Below, piece after piece: positions 41,940 through 58,334 of a stretch of DNA of 64,000 nt. The notes under the pieces were generated by a model, which saw nothing but the letters and a program-made list of their open reading frames with translations, ran no database searches and was not told the DNA's origin. Position numbers and translations under genes: made by a program. The DNA is taken from the NCBI RefSeq assembly GCF_026162645.1, contig NZ_JAOTBE010000009.1:1-64000 (forward strand), written 5' to 3'. The stretch comes from Paracoccus rhizosphaerae. Lineage in GTDB: Bacteria; Pseudomonadota; Alphaproteobacteria; Rhodobacterales; Rhodobacteraceae. Numbering within the stretch: the first letter of the stretch is position 1; each line of letters opens with the position of its first letter.

Positions 41940-43237
41940 TGCAAACGCATTTCACGCCGGAACAGCTGTCGGACCCCTTGACCGCCAGGTCGAACAAGAT
42001 CCTGCGCACCTGCGTCCACTGCGGGTTCTGCACCGCGACCTGTCCGACCTACAAGGTCCTGGGCGACGAACTCGACAGCCCGCGCGGCCGAATCTACCTG
42101 ATGAAGGAGATGTTGGAATCCGGTCGTCCCGCCGATGCGAAGACGGTCAAGCATATCGACCGCTGCCTGGGTTGCCTGTCCTGCATGACGACCTGCCCGT
42201 CGGGCGTCCACTATGCCCACCTGCTGGAACACGGGCGTGAGCATATCGAGGCGACCTATCGCCGCCCGTGGCGCGACCGCACCCTGCGTTGGGTGTTGCG
42301 GCAGGTGCTGCCCTATCCCAGCCGGTTCCGGCTGGCGCTGCTGGGGGCGAAGGTGGCAAAGCCCTTCGCGCAGTTGATGCCGGACAAGCGCCTTCGGGCG
42401 ATGATTGGCATGGCGCCGGCGACCATCCCCCCGGTCAGCCGCAACGACGAAGGCCAGACGCTCCCTGCGATCGGTGAGCGCCGTGCCCGGGTGGCGCTGA
42501 TGATCGGCTGCGCGCAAAGGGCGCTGAACACCGACATCAACGACGCCACGATCCGCCTGCTGCGTCGGGCGGGCTGCGAAGTGGTCATCCCGCAGGACTT
42601 CGGCTGCTGCGGCGCGCTGACGCTGCACATGGGGCTTGAAGCTGACGGCAAGGCCCGCGCCAGGGACAGCATCGCCCGGCTGCTGGCCGCCGAGGCGGAT
42701 GGGCCGCTGGATGCGATCATCATCAACACCTCGGGCTGCGGGACGACGATCAAGGACTATGGCCACCTCTTCGCGGGCGATGCCGTCGAAGCCGATGCCC
42801 GCCGCGTCAGTGCGCTGGCGCGCGACGTGACCGAGTTCATGGCGCAGCTCGGCCTGCCGGCCATCGCCGACCAGCCGAAACAGAAGATGCGGGTGGCCTA
42901 TCACTCCGCCTGCTCCCTGCAGCATGGTCAGCAGATCCGGTCGGCGCCCAAGGACCTGCTGACGGCCGCCGGTTTTCAGGTGGTCGAGCCTGCCGACGCG
43001 CATCTCTGCTGCGGGTCAGCGGGGACCTACAACCTGCTGCAGCCCGAGCTGTCGGCCGAGCTGAAATCCCGCAAGGTCAGCACGCTCGAGGCATTGGCGC
43101 CGCAGGTGATCGCGGCCGGAAACATCGGCTGCATGATGCAGATTGGCGGCGGCACGAACGTGCCGGTGGTCCATACGGTCGAGCTGCTGGATTGGGCCAC
43201 CGGCGGGCCGCAGCCGCGGGCGCTGATTTCTGCATGA
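41939..43237 (+). CDS. glcF: Glycolate oxidase iron-sulfur subunit GlcF
   Basis: A 432-residue subunit. Two 4Fe-4S motifs, CVHCGFCTATCP (about 25) and CLGCLSCMTTCP (about 75), are followed by two CCG domains with DFGCCGAL and HLCCGSAG, the heterodisulfide-reductase-like cysteine-rich pattern. It carries electrons from the flavin subunits towards the quinone pool. Last gene of glcDEF; the heat-shock promoter of the next gene begins right after its stop. Confidence 0.96.
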   Translation: MQTHFTPEQLSDPLTARSNKILRTCVHCGFCTATCPTYKVLGDELDSPRGRIYLMKEMLESGRPADAKTVKHIDRCLGCLSCMTTCPSGVHYAHLLEHGREHIEATYRRPWRDRTLRWVLRQVLPYPSRFRLALLGAKVAKPFAQLMPDKRLRAMIGMAPATIPPVSRNDEGQTLPAIGERRARVALMIGCAQRALNTDINDATIRLLRRAGCEVVIPQDFGCCGALTLHMGLEADGKARARDSIARLLAAEADGPLDAIIINTSGCGTTIKDYGHLFAGDAVEADARRVSALARDVTEFMAQLGLPAIADQPKQKMRVAYHSACSLQHGQQIRSAPKDLLTAAGFQVVEPADAHLCCGSAGTYNLLQPELSAELKSRKVSTLEALAPQVIAAGNIGCMMQIGGGTNVPVVHTVELLDWATGGPQPRALISA

Positions 43238-43243
43238 CTGGGT

Positions 43244-43272
43244 CTTGAAACCGGTTTTTCCCATCCCAGATC
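43244..43272 (+). promoter_or_regulatory. Candidate RpoH (heat-shock) promoter of the sHsp gene
   Basis: A perfect CTTGAAA -35 (43244-43250) followed at 14 nt by CCCAGATC (43265-43272), close to the heat-shock -10 CCCATNTA; a better-looking CCCATCCC at 43260 is too near. The predicted start point near 43278 would give an mRNA leader of about 85 nt. Confidence 0.6.
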
Positions 43273-43278
43273 ATGGGG

Positions 43279-43363
43279 ACCGGCGGCCATAACGGCGTCG
43301 GTGGACAGCCCGCCCGGTCTCCGGGGGGCGCCCATGACATCGCTTTTCTGAGGATGTGACCAA
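43279..43363 (+). ncRNA. ROSE-like RNA thermometer in the sHsp leader
   Basis: Three hairpins fill the leader. I: 43279-43302, ACCGGCG with CGTCGGT (one G-U). II: about 43313-43325, CCCGG with CCGGG, extendable. III: 43337-43357, ACATC-[G]-CT with AG-GATGT and loop TTTCTG. In III the UCGCU sequence pairs with AGGA of the Shine-Dalgarno site leaving one G (43342) unpaired, the hallmark of ROSE elements, which mask the ribosome site at low temperature and open on heating. Folding was done by eye; the class is inferred from this signature and from the downstream sHsp gene. Confidence 0.65.
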
Positions 43364-43816
43364 ATGCGTAACTTCGATCTGACCCCGCTCTATCGTGCGT
43401 CTGTGGGCTTCGACCGCCTGGCCGACGTGATGGACCGCGCCATGACCGCCGACGTGTCGGCCTCGACCTATCCGCCCTACAATATCGAGAAGACTGGCGA
43501 CGATGCCTATCGCATCTCGATCGCGGTGGCAGGCTTTGCCGCCGATGACCTGAACGTCGAGGTTCGTGACGGTGCGGTCATCGTCTCGGCCCGCAAGGCG
43601 GATGAGGATGACGGCCGGATCTACCTGCACCGCGGTATCGCGACCCGCGCGTTCGAGCGCAAGTTCACCCTTGCCGACCACGTCCGTGTCGACGGCGCCA
43701 GCCATGCCGACGGTATGCTGCACATCGACCTGGTGCGCGAGATCCCCGAGGCGCTGAAGCCGCGCCGCATCGAGATCGCCAAGACCACCCCGAAGGTCGA
43801 GAAGCTGGACGCCTGA
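43364..43816 (+). CDS. Small heat shock protein, Hsp20/IbpA family
   Basis: A 150-residue holdase chaperone. The start MRNFDLTPLYRASVGFDRL is that of IbpA-type class A proteins; the alpha-crystallin domain covers about 36-130 (YNIEKTGDDAYRISIAVAGF, HRGIATRAFERKFTLADHV), and the short C-terminal extension contains RRIEIA, in the place of the oligomer-forming IxI motif. It binds unfolding proteins in the cytoplasm during heat stress. Regulation by heat is indicated twice: a CTTGAAA promoter and a ROSE-like leader directly upstream. Confidence 0.95.
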   Translation: MRNFDLTPLYRASVGFDRLADVMDRAMTADVSASTYPPYNIEKTGDDAYRISIAVAGFAADDLNVEVRDGAVIVSARKADEDDGRIYLHRGIATRAFERKFTLADHVRVDGASHADGMLHIDLVREIPEALKPRRIEIAKTTPKVEKLDA

Positions 43817-44864: not shown

Positions 44865-46649
44865 TCAGTCCTCATCCTCAAAGGGGTCCCATTCCTCGAC
44901 CTCGGCCACCGGGCCGTCGGTTCCGTCATGCGGGTTAGCCGCGCCTTCGGCCAGGTCCTCGACCTGCACCTGGGGTGCGGCACGGGTGATGCTGGTCAAC
45001 GTCGCGCCGGGAAACGCCGCAAGGACCTGCTGGACGATCGGCAGGGACATGGCCCGCTGCCGTGCCACTTGGGCCTCGGCCTCCCGCGCCTCGGCGATCG
45101 TCGGCGCACCGCCGGCATTCGTCACCGTCACAGCCCACCGCTGACCGCCAGTCCAGCCGCGCAGCCGCTCCGCCAGCCGCTGCGCGAGGTCCGCAGGAGC
45201 ATTTGCGCGCGGTTCGAACTCGATCCGGCCGGGGCTGTAGCGGACCAGCGCCACGTGTCGTTCCACCATCACCAGAAGCGTCATGTCGCGCATCCGGCGG
45301 ATCAGTTCGACAACCGAGCCGAAGTCGGGGAACGTCTCGACCAGCTCTGGTGCGACGGCAAGCGCGGTCGCCGCGTTGGCTTGATGCTGGACCGCCGGTG
45401 CAGGGCGGGCGCGGCGGGCGGCCTGCGGGGCTTCGGTCGCTCCGGCGCCCGCCACCGAAGGTCCACGGGCGAATTCCCCGGCCGCCTGCGCCTGCTGGAC
45501 GCGACGGATCAGCGCCTCCGGGTCGGGCAGGTCAGCGACATGCGTCAGGCGGATGATTGCCATCTCGGCCGCCATCATCGCGTTCGGCGCGGCCGAGACT
45601 TCCTCGAGCGCCTTCAGAAGCAGCTGCCACATCCGCGACATGACCCGCATCGGCAAGCGTTCGGCGAGATCCTTGCCCCGCAGCCGCTCATCCGGCGAAA
45701 TCGTCGGATCGTCCAGCGCATCCGGCGTGATCTTGACGACGGAAATCCAGTGCGTCACCTCGGCCAGGTCGCGCAGGACGGCCACGGGATCCGCGCCATC
45801 GGCATATTGCGACTGCAACTCCGTCAGCGCCGCCGCCGCATCGCCGCGCAGCACCATCTCGAAGAGGTCGAGGACGCGGCCCCGGTCCGCCAAGCCCAGC
45901 ATGGCACGAACCTGATCCGCCGTTGTCTCGCCCGCCCCGTGGCTGATCGCCTGGTCAAGCAAGCTTGTCGCGTCGCGAGCAGATCCTTCGGCCGCCCGCG
46001 TGATCAGCGCCAGCGCGTCACCGCTGATCTGCGCACCCTCGGCCGTGGCGATGCGCGTCAGCAGGGCGATCATCACCTCGGGCTCGATCCGGCGAAGATC
46101 GAAGCGCTGGCAGCGTGACAGGACCGTCACCGGCACCTTCCGAATCTCGGTCGTGGCAAAAATGAATTTTACATGCGGAGGCGGCTCTTCCAGCGTCTTC
46201 AGCAGCGCGTTGAACGCGCTGGTGGACAACATGTGAACCTCGTCGATGATATAGATCTTGTAGCGCGCCGATGCCGCCCGGTAATGCACCGATTCGATGA
46301 TCTCTCGGATGTCGCCGACGCCGGTGCGGGACGCGGCATCCATCTCCATCACGTCGACATGGCGCCCCTCGCTGATGGCGACGCAATGTTCGCAGGTGCC
46401 GCAGGGTTCGGTTGTGGGGCCGCCTGTGCCATCTGGCCCGATGCAGTTCATGCCCTTGGCGATGATGCGGGCGGTCGTCGTCTTCCCTGTGCCGCGGATG
46501 CCGGTCATGATGAAGGCCTGCGCGATCCGGTCGGCGGCAAAAGCGTTCTTCAGCGTGCGGACCATCGCATCCTGCCCGACCAGGTCGGCGAACGTCTCGG
46601 GTCGGTATTTTCGGGCCAGAACCTGATAGGCGGTCGGCGTGTCTGTCAT
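44865..46649 (-). CDS. dnaX: DNA polymerase III subunit gamma/tau
   Basis: A 594-residue clamp-loader ATPase. Start MTDTPTAYQVLARKYRPETF at 46649 (GAGGG upstream; an ATG five codons earlier is possible). P-loop GIRGTGKTTTARI near 50, zinc-binding cysteines including CGTCEHC near 80, Walker B IYIIDEVHMLS near 130 and the sensor SRCQRFDLRR near 175. Domain III follows to about 360, then a proline/alanine linker and the tau-specific C-terminal domain ending in an acidic tail. I see no A-rich slippery site for a gamma product. Directly downstream of the SRP RNA. Confidence 0.97.
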   Translation of the reverse strand: MTDTPTAYQVLARKYRPETFADLVGQDAMVRTLKNAFAADRIAQAFIMTGIRGTGKTTTARIIAKGMNCIGPDGTGGPTTEPCGTCEHCVAISEGRHVDVMEMDAASRTGVGDIREIIESVHYRAASARYKIYIIDEVHMLSTSAFNALLKTLEEPPPHVKFIFATTEIRKVPVTVLSRCQRFDLRRIEPEVMIALLTRIATAEGAQISGDALALITRAAEGSARDATSLLDQAISHGAGETTADQVRAMLGLADRGRVLDLFEMVLRGDAAAALTELQSQYADGADPVAVLRDLAEVTHWISVVKITPDALDDPTISPDERLRGKDLAERLPMRVMSRMWQLLLKALEEVSAAPNAMMAAEMAIIRLTHVADLPDPEALIRRVQQAQAAGEFARGPSVAGAGATEAPQAARRARPAPAVQHQANAATALAVAPELVETFPDFGSVVELIRRMRDMTLLVMVERHVALVRYSPGRIEFEPRANAPADLAQRLAERLRGWTGGQRWAVTVTNAGGAPTIAEAREAEAQVARQRAMSLPIVQQVLAAFPGATLTSITRAAPQVQVEDLAEGAANPHDGTDGPVAEVEEWDPFEDED

Positions 46650-46727
46650 GGGTCCCTCGGGCATCGCGTCACCTTAGCCGTGCCCGCAGGGGGCGACAAC
46701 CGGATTGCCTGAGATTGGAGGAGAGGT

Positions 46728-46821
46728 GAGAGGCTGGACAACGACCCAAACGGGACCCGTTACGGCTGCTTCCTTCCGGACCTGACCGGATTGGCGGGGC
46801 GTCTACCCGCGCCAACCTCTC
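46728..46821 (-). ncRNA. ffs: Signal recognition particle RNA (4.5S, small bacterial type)
   Basis: On the minus strand, the conserved GTCCGGAAGGAAGCAGC with its GGAA tetraloop and asymmetric internal loop for Ffh binding is flanked by long complementary arms: the ends GAGAGGTTGG and CCAGCCTCTC pair over 10 bp with one G-U. Total about 94 nt, the normal size. The gene sits upstream of dnaX-ybaB-recR, as in many proteobacteria. The RNA joins Ffh to target membrane proteins to FtsY. End points are set by the terminal helix and could be off by a few bases. Confidence 0.95.
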
Positions 46822-55387: not shown

Positions 55388-57111
55388 GTCGCCCTGACGA
55401 CAAGGGTACGCTGCCGCCCACGGTGCTGATGCCCGCCGCCCCAGCCGCCGCGCACGAAGATCATGGCCCCGGCGTGCCGGGCCATCCTGAGGCTCATCCC
55501 GCAGCGGTTCCCGCCCCGCCCGCCGATGCGGTGCTGGACGTGCGCGACCTTCGCATCGGCTTTCGCGCCGAGGGGCGGCTTATCCCCGCCGTCAAGGGCG
55601 TCAGCTTCCATATCAGCCGAGGGGAGACGGTCGCCCTGGTCGGCGAATCCGGGTCCGGCAAGTCGATCACCGCGCTCTCCACTGTGCAGCTTCTGGGCGC
55701 CTCGGCGGTGGTCGAGGGCTCCGTACGCTATGACGGGCAAGAGATGGTAGGCGCCCCGGAGCGCACGCTTCGACGCATCAGGGGCAACGACATCAGCTTC
55801 ATCTTCCAAGAGCCGATGACCTCGCTGAACCCGCTGCACACGCTGGAAAAGCAGCTGTCGGAAAGCCTGGCGCTGCACCAGGGCCTGACCGGCGCCAAGG
55901 CGCGGACGCGGATCGTCGAACTGCTGACCCGCGTCGGCATCCGCGACCCGGAAAGCCGGCTGGCGGATTACCCGCACCAGCTGTCAGGGGGGCAGCGCCA
56001 GCGCGTGATGATCGCCATGGCGCTGGCCAACGGTCCCGACCTGCTGATCGCCGACGAACCCACGACCGCCCTGGATGTCACCATTCAGGCGCAGATCCTG
56101 GAGCTGCTTGCGGAGCTGAAGGCCGCTGAGGGCCTGTCGATGCTGTTCATCAGCCATGACCTGGGCATCGTACGACGCATCGCCGACCGCGTCTGCGTCA
56201 TGAAGGACGGAGCGATCGTTGAGCAGGGGCCTGTCGATCAGATCTTCAGCGATCCGCGCCACCCATATACGCAGAAGCTGCTGCACGCAGAGCCGCAGGG
56301 GCGGGCCGAACCCGTGGCCCCCGACGCGCCGGTGTTGGTCGAGACGCGCGACCTGAAGGTCTGGTTCCCGATTCAGCGCGGACTGCTGCGCCGCACCGTC
56401 GGCCATGTGAAGGCCGTGAACGGGGCGAGCCTGTCGCTGCGCGCGGGTGAAACACTTGGCATCGTGGGCGAATCCGGTAGCGGCAAGACTACGCTGGCAC
56501 TGGCGATCATGCGGCTGATCGACAGCGACGGCCCGATCCTCTTCATGGGGCAGGACATCCAGGGCTGGGGCGGCGCGCAGCTGCGCCGGCTGCGCCGCGA
56601 CATGCAGATCGTGTTCCAGGACCCCTATGGCAGCCTCTCGCCCCGCATGACGGTCGAACAGATCATCACCGAAGGCCTAGGCGTCCACGGCATCGACAAG
56701 TCGCGCGACCGCCGACAGCTGGTCATGGACATCATGTCCGAGGTCGGCCTGAACCCCGACATGATGCACCGCTATCCGCACGAATTCAGCGGCGGCCAGC
56801 GCCAGCGCATCGCGATCGCCCGCGCGATGATCCTGCGCCCCAAGGTCGTCGTTCTGGACGAACCCACCAGCGCACTGGACATGACTGTTCAGGTCCAGAT
56901 TGTGGACCTGCTGCGCGACCTGCAGCGCCGGCACGGTCTGGCCTTCCTGTTCATCAGCCATGACCTGCGAGTTGTCCGAGCGATGGCCCATCACATCATG
57001 GTCATGCGTGCAGGTGAGGTGGTCGAGCAGGGCGGAGTGACGCAGATCTTCCAGACGCCGCAGCAGGACTATACCCGCGCACTTCTTCGGGCGGCCTTTC
57101 CGGACGCGTGA
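55384..57111 (+). CDS. Peptide ABC transporter, fused dual ATPase (YejF-like)
   Basis: A 575-residue protein with two complete ABC domains. Domain 1 (about 50-300): GESGSGKS, signature [14 protein letters not shown], Walker [13 protein letters not shown]. Domain 2 (about 320-575): [36 protein letters not shown]. An unusual N-terminal extension of about 45 residues rich in Pro, Ala and His precedes domain 1. It powers uptake through the two permeases. Stop overlaps the glycosyltransferase start. Confidence 0.95.
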
Positions 57112-58334
57112 TGAAGATCCTTTTCGTGCACCAGAACTTCCCGGGGCAGTTCCCGCACCTGGCCCCGGCGCTGGCGGCCCGCGGGCACGAGGTCCTGGCC
57201 CTGACCGACGAGAACAACCAGCGGCCAAGCCCCGTCACGACGCTGCGGTACAAGGCGCCGGGGACGGTCCAGACGGACAGCGCACTTGGCCGCACCTTCT
57301 CTCAGGTCGCCGAGCGCGGTCTTCTGGCAGCGCGTGGGGCGCGGGCACTGCGGGACCGCCATGGGTTCCACCCCGACGTCATCATCGGCCACCCGGGCTG
57401 GGGCGAGACGCTGTTCCTGAAAGAGATCTGGCCCCAGGCAACGCTGCTGGTCTATGCCGAACTGATGTACCGCACGCGCGGCCACGATGTCGGCTTCGAC
57501 CCCGAGATCAGTCCGGACCGCGACGAATCGCGGTTCATGACCGTCGCTCGATCGGCGCACCTGATCCAAGGGATCGTCCAGGCGGATGCGGCCATCGCGC
57601 CGACCCGCTACCAGGCCGACAGCTTTCCACCCGAGCTGCGCGGCAAGATCACTGTCATCCACGACGGCATCGACACCTCGGCCGTCGCGCCAGATCCGTC
57701 GGCGCGGCTTTCGTTGCCCGACGGGCGTGTTCTTCGGGCGGGGGACGAGGTTCTCAGCTTCGTGTCCCGGTCGTTGGAACCCTATCGCGGCTTTCACGTT
57801 TTCATGCGTGCGCTGCCGCGGGTGCTGGCGGAGCGTCCCGATGCTCAGGTGGTTCTGGTCGGGGCCGAGGGCATCAGCTATGGCAGCAAGCCCAAGGACG
57901 CCGACAGCTGGAAGCAGAAGATGCTGGCTGAGGTTGGGGGCAAGCTGGACCTGTCGCGGGTGCATTTTCTGGGTCGTGTGCCCTATGGCGATTATCTGTC
58001 GCTGCTGCGGGTGGCGCGCGTCCACTGCTATCTGACCTATCCTTTCGTGCTTTCCTGGTCCCTGACCGAGGCGATGGCGGCGGGGGCCTATGTCGTAGGT
58101 TCCGATACGGAGCCCGTGCGCGAACTGATCCGCGATGGCCAGAACGGACGGCTGGTGCCGTTCTTCGACATCCCGGCGCTGTCGTCGGCGCTGGTCCGCG
58201 GACTGGCCGAGGACCCCGACGCGCCGGCTATCAGGGCGGCGGCTCGGCAGACGATCATCTCGGGCTATGATCTGCATGCGACCAGCCTGCCACGGCAGAT
58301 CGCCTGGGTGGAAAGCCGGGGCGCAATGCGCTAA
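57111..58334 (+). CDS. Glycosyltransferase family 4 protein
   Basis: A 407-residue GT-B fold enzyme. [21 protein letters not shown] at the start is common to a set of GT4 proteins; the C-half has [35 protein letters not shown] and [25 protein letters not shown], with the E-x7-E type nucleotide-sugar binding. The acceptor is unknown; cell-surface polysaccharide is likely. The ATG is embedded in the ATPase stop codon (GTGATG), so it is translated with the peptide transporter, an uncommon partner. Confidence 0.9.

Follow-up and report, generated by a model that had tools for sequence, protein, structure and literature searches.

The 85-nt leader of a small heat-shock protein (sHsp) gene in the window, by which we mean the whole analysed stretch of 64,000 nucleotides of Paracoccus rhizosphaerae DNA, is very probably a ROSE-like RNA thermometer, whose opening on heating would follow the precedent of validated relatives. 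The three successive hairpins that a first-pass annotation of this DNA had described were recovered at 43279-43357, in the free fold of the leader as well as by RNAalifold with RIBOSUM scoring. Its pairing of UCGCU with AGGA around an unpaired G43342 is seen on direct reading, in the fold and in the orthologs. The ROSE-like build that it placed before an sHsp gene also holds, since UYGCU precedes AGGA in all 103 distinct orthologous leaders from Paracoccus and other Rhodobacteraceae, and the downstream product belongs to PF00011. The distance to the start codon, given there as 7 nt, is corrected here to 9 nt between AGGA and AUG.

The locus and its promoter

The ORF at 43364-43816 encodes an Hsp20/alpha-crystallin protein (PF00011, E = 1.3e-18), which shares 52% identity with E. 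coli IbpA in an alignment of eight proteins and finds its closest named relatives in Paracoccus species, with up to 93% protein identity. The preceding ORF ends at 43237, and the promoter and the 85-nt leader lie in the gap to the sHsp start at 43364 (Table 1). The -35-like CTTGAA of this promoter is one that we take to be of the RpoH type, going by the RpoH consensus, and transcription would start near 43279. The suggestion that the gene is also under RpoH transcription agrees with the conservation of this RpoH-like promoter: CTTGA[AC] is found 100-150 nt upstream of the ATG in 89 of the 92 non-redundant leaders for which at least 140 nt of upstream sequence are available, and in 1.5% of mononucleotide shuffles. 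The columns of the -10 region in these 89 leaders show C in 82, followed by C in 60, A at position 25 in 63 and T at position 28 in 65; the window departs from the majority base at the latter two positions, where it has G and C, respectively. Elsewhere in the window, the bacterial small signal recognition particle RNA occupies 46725-46821 on the minus strand, upstream of a same-strand ORF (44865-46664) that is presumably dnaX.

Table 1. Features of the sHsp locus in the window
Feature	Position	Strand	Remarks and basis
-35-like CTTGAA, RpoH-type promoter	43244..43249	+	conserved in ortholog leaders
-10-like CCCAGATC	43265..43272	+	conserved positions 22-28 after the start of the -35 element
Hairpin I	43279..43302	+	bulged G43286; free fold, ortholog changes
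Hairpin II	43308..43329	+	bulged G43312; free fold, ortholog changes
Hairpin III, SD-masking, presumed thermosensing	43337..43357	+	bulged G43342; free fold, orthologs
Anti-Shine-Dalgarno UCGCU	43340..43344	+	read directly; orthologs
Shine-Dalgarno (SD) AGGA	43351..43354	+	read directly; 9 nt between AGGA and ATG
sHsp gene with an IbpA-like product of 150 aa	43364..43816	+	PF00011

Comparative evidence for the structure

The window sequence by itself is not compelling, and the comparison of orthologs is decisive. The free fold yields three hairpins, with G43342 left unpaired within the UCGCU/AGGA helix, and it is only moderately more stable than the folds of dinucleotide shuffles (z = -1.21), with 25 of 200 shuffles folding equally well. 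The pattern TCGCT-N3-9-AGGA-N5-10-ATG is expected 0.29 times per window by chance, and 25 of 100 shuffles contain one. With 23 such sites genome-wide, against 8 in a reversed control, and this chance expectation, motif rarity was dropped as evidence. Identical TCGCT...AGGA...ATG sites also occur on different contigs of the same genome (C11:15354-15377 and C138:1355-1378), perhaps as a repeated gene start. The ROSE-like element is accepted as more than chance because its orthologs agree, and not on the strength of the single sequence.

The leader set derives from 120 parsed loci, of which L001-L010 were removed (L002 being the window's own place again and the rest paralogs or leaders of the RF00435 type), and merging of identical leaders then reduced 110 to 103. 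One leader, L054, was omitted from the alignment set on account of its offset start, and removal of near-identical leaders took the resulting 102 to 93, among which the core reads UCGCU in 90 and UUGCU in 3. The flanks of this core form a mean of 3.14 pairs in the 93 leaders, compared with 2.69 +/- 0.09 when they are swapped between species, the observed value being reached in 0 of 2000 exchanges. For the analysis of covariation, 58 of the 93 leaders were used in a sequence-only alignment (A1), whose structure was put together by letting individual folds of these 58 rows vote.

Related leaders do show compensatory changes, the absence of which had been named beforehand as grounds for rejecting the element: across the stems of A1, 183 both-sided changes were counted, compared with 82.8 +/- 11.6 in shuffled alignments, and none of 500 shuffles reached the observed count. 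The shuffles ignore relatedness, and a safer comparison is the control in which the partner strand is slid, which gives 36-112 both-sided changes on A1 versus the 183 observed. In hairpin I, 9 of the 10 pairs have undergone a both-sided change among the orthologs, and in hairpin II the pairs flanking the bulge alternate between C-G and U-A. The four core pairs of hairpin III are retained in all 58 rows, while the pair just inside the core is C-G in 28, U-A in 17, U-G in 12 and otherwise constituted or unpaired in 1. RNAalifold with RIBOSUM scoring recovers all three hairpins of A1 together with their G bulges; under its default settings the same program recovers hairpin III alone and does not find hairpins I and II, a shortfall that may be caused by gaps placed by MAFFT inside these two hairpins. 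A further alignment, A3, gives 339 both-sided changes against 122.4 +/- 11.4 shuffled, but it was fitted to a covariance model and its counts lean towards the structure, making A1 the fairer test. Three leaders (L078, L079 and L089) carry an insert between hairpins II and III, which resembles an extra hairpin in the alignment. Taken together, covariation and conservation among the compared sequences establish the UCGCU/AGGA pairing.

Relationship to known ROSE families

The imperfect pairing of U(U/C)GCU with the SD in a 3'-proximal hairpin, by which ROSE-like elements are recognised (PMC3669281, in excerpt), is present in the window leader. Its three hairpins ahead of an Hsp20 gene also lie within the two to four that the class displays in sHsp 5' UTRs. 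Homology to a validated member is provided by R1, a covariance model built from the 58 A1 leaders, whose 3' end covers the first two codons (AUGCGU) and thus includes some coding sequence: in a search of 15 kb of sequence, it aligned to the whole of the E. coli ibpA leader with a score of 36.6 bits (E = 9.6e-7).

The comparison with the Rfam ROSE models that the first-pass annotation had proposed supports the assignment in one respect and falls short in another. The rhizobial ROSE family, RF00435, aligns end to end with the window leader, at a score of 25.8 bits that lies under its gathering score of 45. A gathering-threshold Rfam scan of the window reported no ROSE, and the ROSE gathering score was reached at none of the 19 ortholog loci scanned, with the positive control L008 being detected. 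Likewise, genome-wide searches with RF00435 listed an element on contig C180, and the window element was absent from the matches. The RF00435 consensus resembles the window leader in that both its hairpin I and its SD hairpin contain a bulged G, and also in its association with sHsp genes, whereas its middle hairpin lacks the bulged G seen in hairpin II of the window. In the converse search, R1 found 13 of 15 RF00435 places with E values no higher than 0.011, whereas L009 and L010 reached only 0.18-0.19; the place of L008 was searched via L001. The element on C180 is a second ROSE of the same genome (L008 1501-1592; C180:68403-68494, minus strand), which is recognised by Rfam at 52.9 bits and precedes two tandem sHsp genes; its last hairpin is longer than hairpin III of the window and extends over the AUG.

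On the gamma-proteobacterial side, Rfam assigns the E. coli ibpA leader to ROSE_2 (RF01832) at 100.4 bits, and this leader shares with that of the window both the UCGCU/AGGA core and an IbpA-type protein. RF01832, with a gathering score of 65, gives no match to the window leader even at a limit of E = 10, finds none in this genome and exceeds its cut-off in 0 of the 289 genomes sampled from the class. When the E. coli leader was folded at three lengths, hairpins I and II had a 5'-strand bulged G at all three, and that of hairpin III appeared only in the longest. Hairpin II of E. coli ibpA, GACCUGUCC...GGAAGGUC, is almost identical to the GCCUGUCC...GGAAGGC of many leaders of the Roseobacter group, and hairpin III is stronger in the window than in E. 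coli ibpA (-6.7 versus -4.6 kcal/mol). The ROSE-G elements, which precede ABC transporter genes, resemble the window leader in their bulged G opposite the SD, but differ from it in having CUGCU, two opposing bulged Gs and other targets, as against UCGCU, a single bulge and an sHsp (PMC12857270, in excerpt); neither CUGCU nor a further bulged G on the SD side is present in the window leader. By structure and homology the window element is ROSE-like, and by their thresholds it is neither RF00435 nor RF01832. It falls between two curated families of one class and bridges the alpha- and gamma-proteobacterial ROSE families.

Phyletic distribution

R1 matches in 120 of 125 Paracoccus genomes, at one place per genome. 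The genomes that it misses (G029, G034, G075, G124 and G137) are exactly the five without a full ortholog of the sHsp, that is, with a best protein match weaker than 1e-60, and the presence of the RNA therefore tracks that of the gene. Beyond the genus, matches were obtained in at least 58 of 289 alphaproteobacterial genomes sampled from the class and at least 35 of 299 from the phylum, these counts being lower bounds since the large screens ran with the stricter filters of Infernal; among the listed same-family genomes of the phylum screen, 14 of 15 have a match, including the window's own. In the same 289 class genomes, at E up to 0.01, R1 detects 58; RF00435 detects 19, of which 2 exceed its cut-off, and RF01832 detects 2, neither of them above the cut-off.

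All 66 R1 matches whose surrounding DNA was examined directly adjoin an sHsp gene, namely 30 of 30 in the class set (which includes the window itself), 12 of 12 in Paracoccus and 24 of 24 in the phylum set (where L188 is a Paracoccus leader). The 53 examined matches outside the Paracoccus sets, 29 from the class and 24 from the phylum, are identical to none of the 103 leaders. When the last 80 nt are compared, 10 of the 66 coincide fully with one of the 103 leaders, and 4 with an A1 row, namely three Paracoccus leaders and the window. Among the new leaders, L191 (0.96) and L133 (0.85) come closest to the rows used for training; the others listed do not exceed 0.72. The sequence UYGCU...AGGA, which was required for the motif count, is present in 26 of the 29 class leaders besides the window and in 23 of the 24 phylum leaders. 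A weak R1 match elsewhere in the window (57104-57187, minus strand; 17.7 bits, E = 0.074) is probably due to chance.

Bulged Gs of the upstream hairpins and possible autorepression

The bulged column of A1 is G in 56 of 58 rows in hairpin I, 56 of 58 in hairpin II and 58 of 58 in hairpin III, and the neighbouring pairs covary; in the model-fitted alignment A3 the G opposite the SD is invariant in 76 of 76 sequences, E. coli included. The same preference emerges when the region of hairpins I and II is folded without constraints in the 93 leaders: 153 of 170 single-base bulges on the 5' strand are G, and only 7 single-base bulges fall on the 3' strand. Two bulged Gs at 2-4 pairs from the loop occur in 46 of these leaders and one in 37, as compared with 0 and 40 of 1860 shuffles. 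Among the class leaders outside the model, 28 of 29 of which could be parsed for this purpose, two are found in 14 and one in 10 (shuffles, 0 and 3 of 560), and in 23 further phylum leaders G accounts for 28 of 31 single-base 5' bulges. Leaders of the RF00435 type show a bulged G in hairpin I in 11 of 15 cases and in the middle hairpin in 1 of the 12 that fold a separate one; one of them, L168, is a strong R1 match (58.1 bits) with the bulge shown in its alignment to R1. The Rfam consensus lines draw such a bulge for RF00435 in hairpin I and for RF01832 in its equivalent of the middle hairpin. In the excerpts of open-licence literature that were searched for bulges of the upstream hairpins, the bulged G is discussed only for the SD hairpin.

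These conserved bulges bear on a somewhat unlikely alternative, according to which the leader would be chiefly a binding site for its own sHsp, with aggregates titrating the sHsp away and melting being secondary; the two modes of control can coexist. E. coli IbpA supplies the precedent, as it represses its own translation through the 5' UTR in a manner that needs R93 and also Y34, R97 and K98, and R93 and Y34 are reported in alpha-proteobacterial IbpAs too (PMC10474464, in excerpt). The window protein has counterparts of E. coli Y34, R93, R97 and K98 in Y36, R95, R99 and K100. Those of R93 and Y34 are present in all 93 window-type proteins, at the R97 position all 93 carry R or K, and at the K98 position 92 of the 93 do. 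Moreover, hairpins I and II, closed in the thermodynamic model, retain their bulged G at the frequencies given above, as does E. coli. Against this stands the RF00435 type, in which the R93 counterpart occurs in 13 of 15 proteins and the middle-hairpin bulge in 1 of 12 leaders, and arginine does not track the bulge; a proposed coupling of the hairpin II bulge to R93 was dropped for the same 13 arginines. The conserved residues of the window-type proteins would fit an autorepression acting by way of hairpins I and II, but the arginine, shared as it is with most RF00435-type proteins, does not discriminate. We would also put forward as a speculation, itself unlikely, that one 5'-strand bulged G per hairpin, a few pairs below the loop, is ancestral to the leaders of Rhodobacteraceae and of E. 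coli ibpA, and that hairpins I and II, instead of simply assisting the fold, serve as conserved recognition sites, most plausibly for the sHsp.

Proposed temperature sensing by hairpin III

In the favoured interpretation as a thermometer, the transcript would be made from the RpoH-type promoter, and at growth temperature hairpin III would pair UCGCU with AGGA around the bulged G and keep ribosomes away. On heating, this imperfect hairpin would open and permit translation of the sHsp, as in relatives such as E. coli ibpA, with hairpins I and II acting as stable, conserved elements that keep their bulged G.

In the thermodynamic model the SD of the window leader is 2.5% unpaired at 37 C, an occlusion that is not extreme: when the upstream part is shuffled, 23 of 500 versions reach it, and of the ordinary window genes, 1 of 14 is at or below 5%, the median being 34%. 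In ViennaRNA less than 20% of the SD is unpaired up to 60 C and hairpins I and II stay closed, and the SD of the second ROSE leader opens earlier than that of the window in the same model. Taken at face value, these predictions would mean that the stability of hairpin III precludes switching at 42 C. The model is a poor judge of switching because it also mispredicts E. coli ibpA, for which the predicted unpaired fraction of the SD lies at 23-47% over the range of 15-46 C and heating does not open it, and the melting simulation was consequently dropped as uninformative evidence. Nearest-neighbour models do not score a non-canonical G-G pair at such a bulge. A pair of this kind is present by NMR at the bulge position of rhizobial ROSE, according to an excerpt of a review (PMC9450479).

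The predicted absence of opening at 42-50 C, along with the conserved heat-shock-like promoter, would fit a static hairpin that lowers translation at all temperatures and leaves heat control wholly to transcription by RpoH. This we judge very unlikely, given that an invariant unpaired G opposite the SD (in every row of A1 and of A3) is what selection for instability would be expected to produce, and that validated relatives of the same build do switch (Pseudomonas ibpA, PMC3669281; review, PMC9450479; both in excerpt). A thermometer of the fourU type, in which the UUUU at 43344-43347 beside the SD would mask AGGA in place of UCGCU, is scarcely credible: UUUU lies only 3 nt away from AGGA, the partner of AGGA in the fold is UCGCU and not four U, and the orthologs keep and pair UYGCU while the bases that follow it vary.

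Implications

The kind of element described here is itself known, and it is the lineage that is missed by the curated thresholds of Rfam. The expectation in the first-pass annotation that a member in this family would extend the class was overstated: a brief statement in a 2011 paper (PMC3230580, in excerpt) already reports typical ROSE-like motifs before ibpA and hspD of Nautella sp. R11, a sister lineage within Rhodobacterales, and refers to earlier work for the common occurrence of ROSE-like thermometers among alpha- and gamma-proteobacteria. For these two classes, a prediction from 2005 had arrived at more than 40 ROSE-type elements, as recounted in an excerpt of PMC4166951. With reference to open-licence papers, this analysis adds the systematic presence of the element before the core sHsp of Paracoccus, the support from covariation, a link between the Rfam families and a measure of how large the annotation gap is.

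In Paracoccus and its relatives, the core sHsp is preceded by a conserved element that is very probably a ROSE-like switch, at a place where the curated Rfam models are blank. The role of the upstream hairpins of ROSE elements is described as not fully understood (PMC3669281, in excerpt), and the conserved bulged Gs of hairpins I and II offer a concrete handle on it. If the proposal of recognition sites in these hairpins is true, a single leader would respond both to temperature, by means of hairpin III, and to protein aggregation, by means of the two upstream hairpins.
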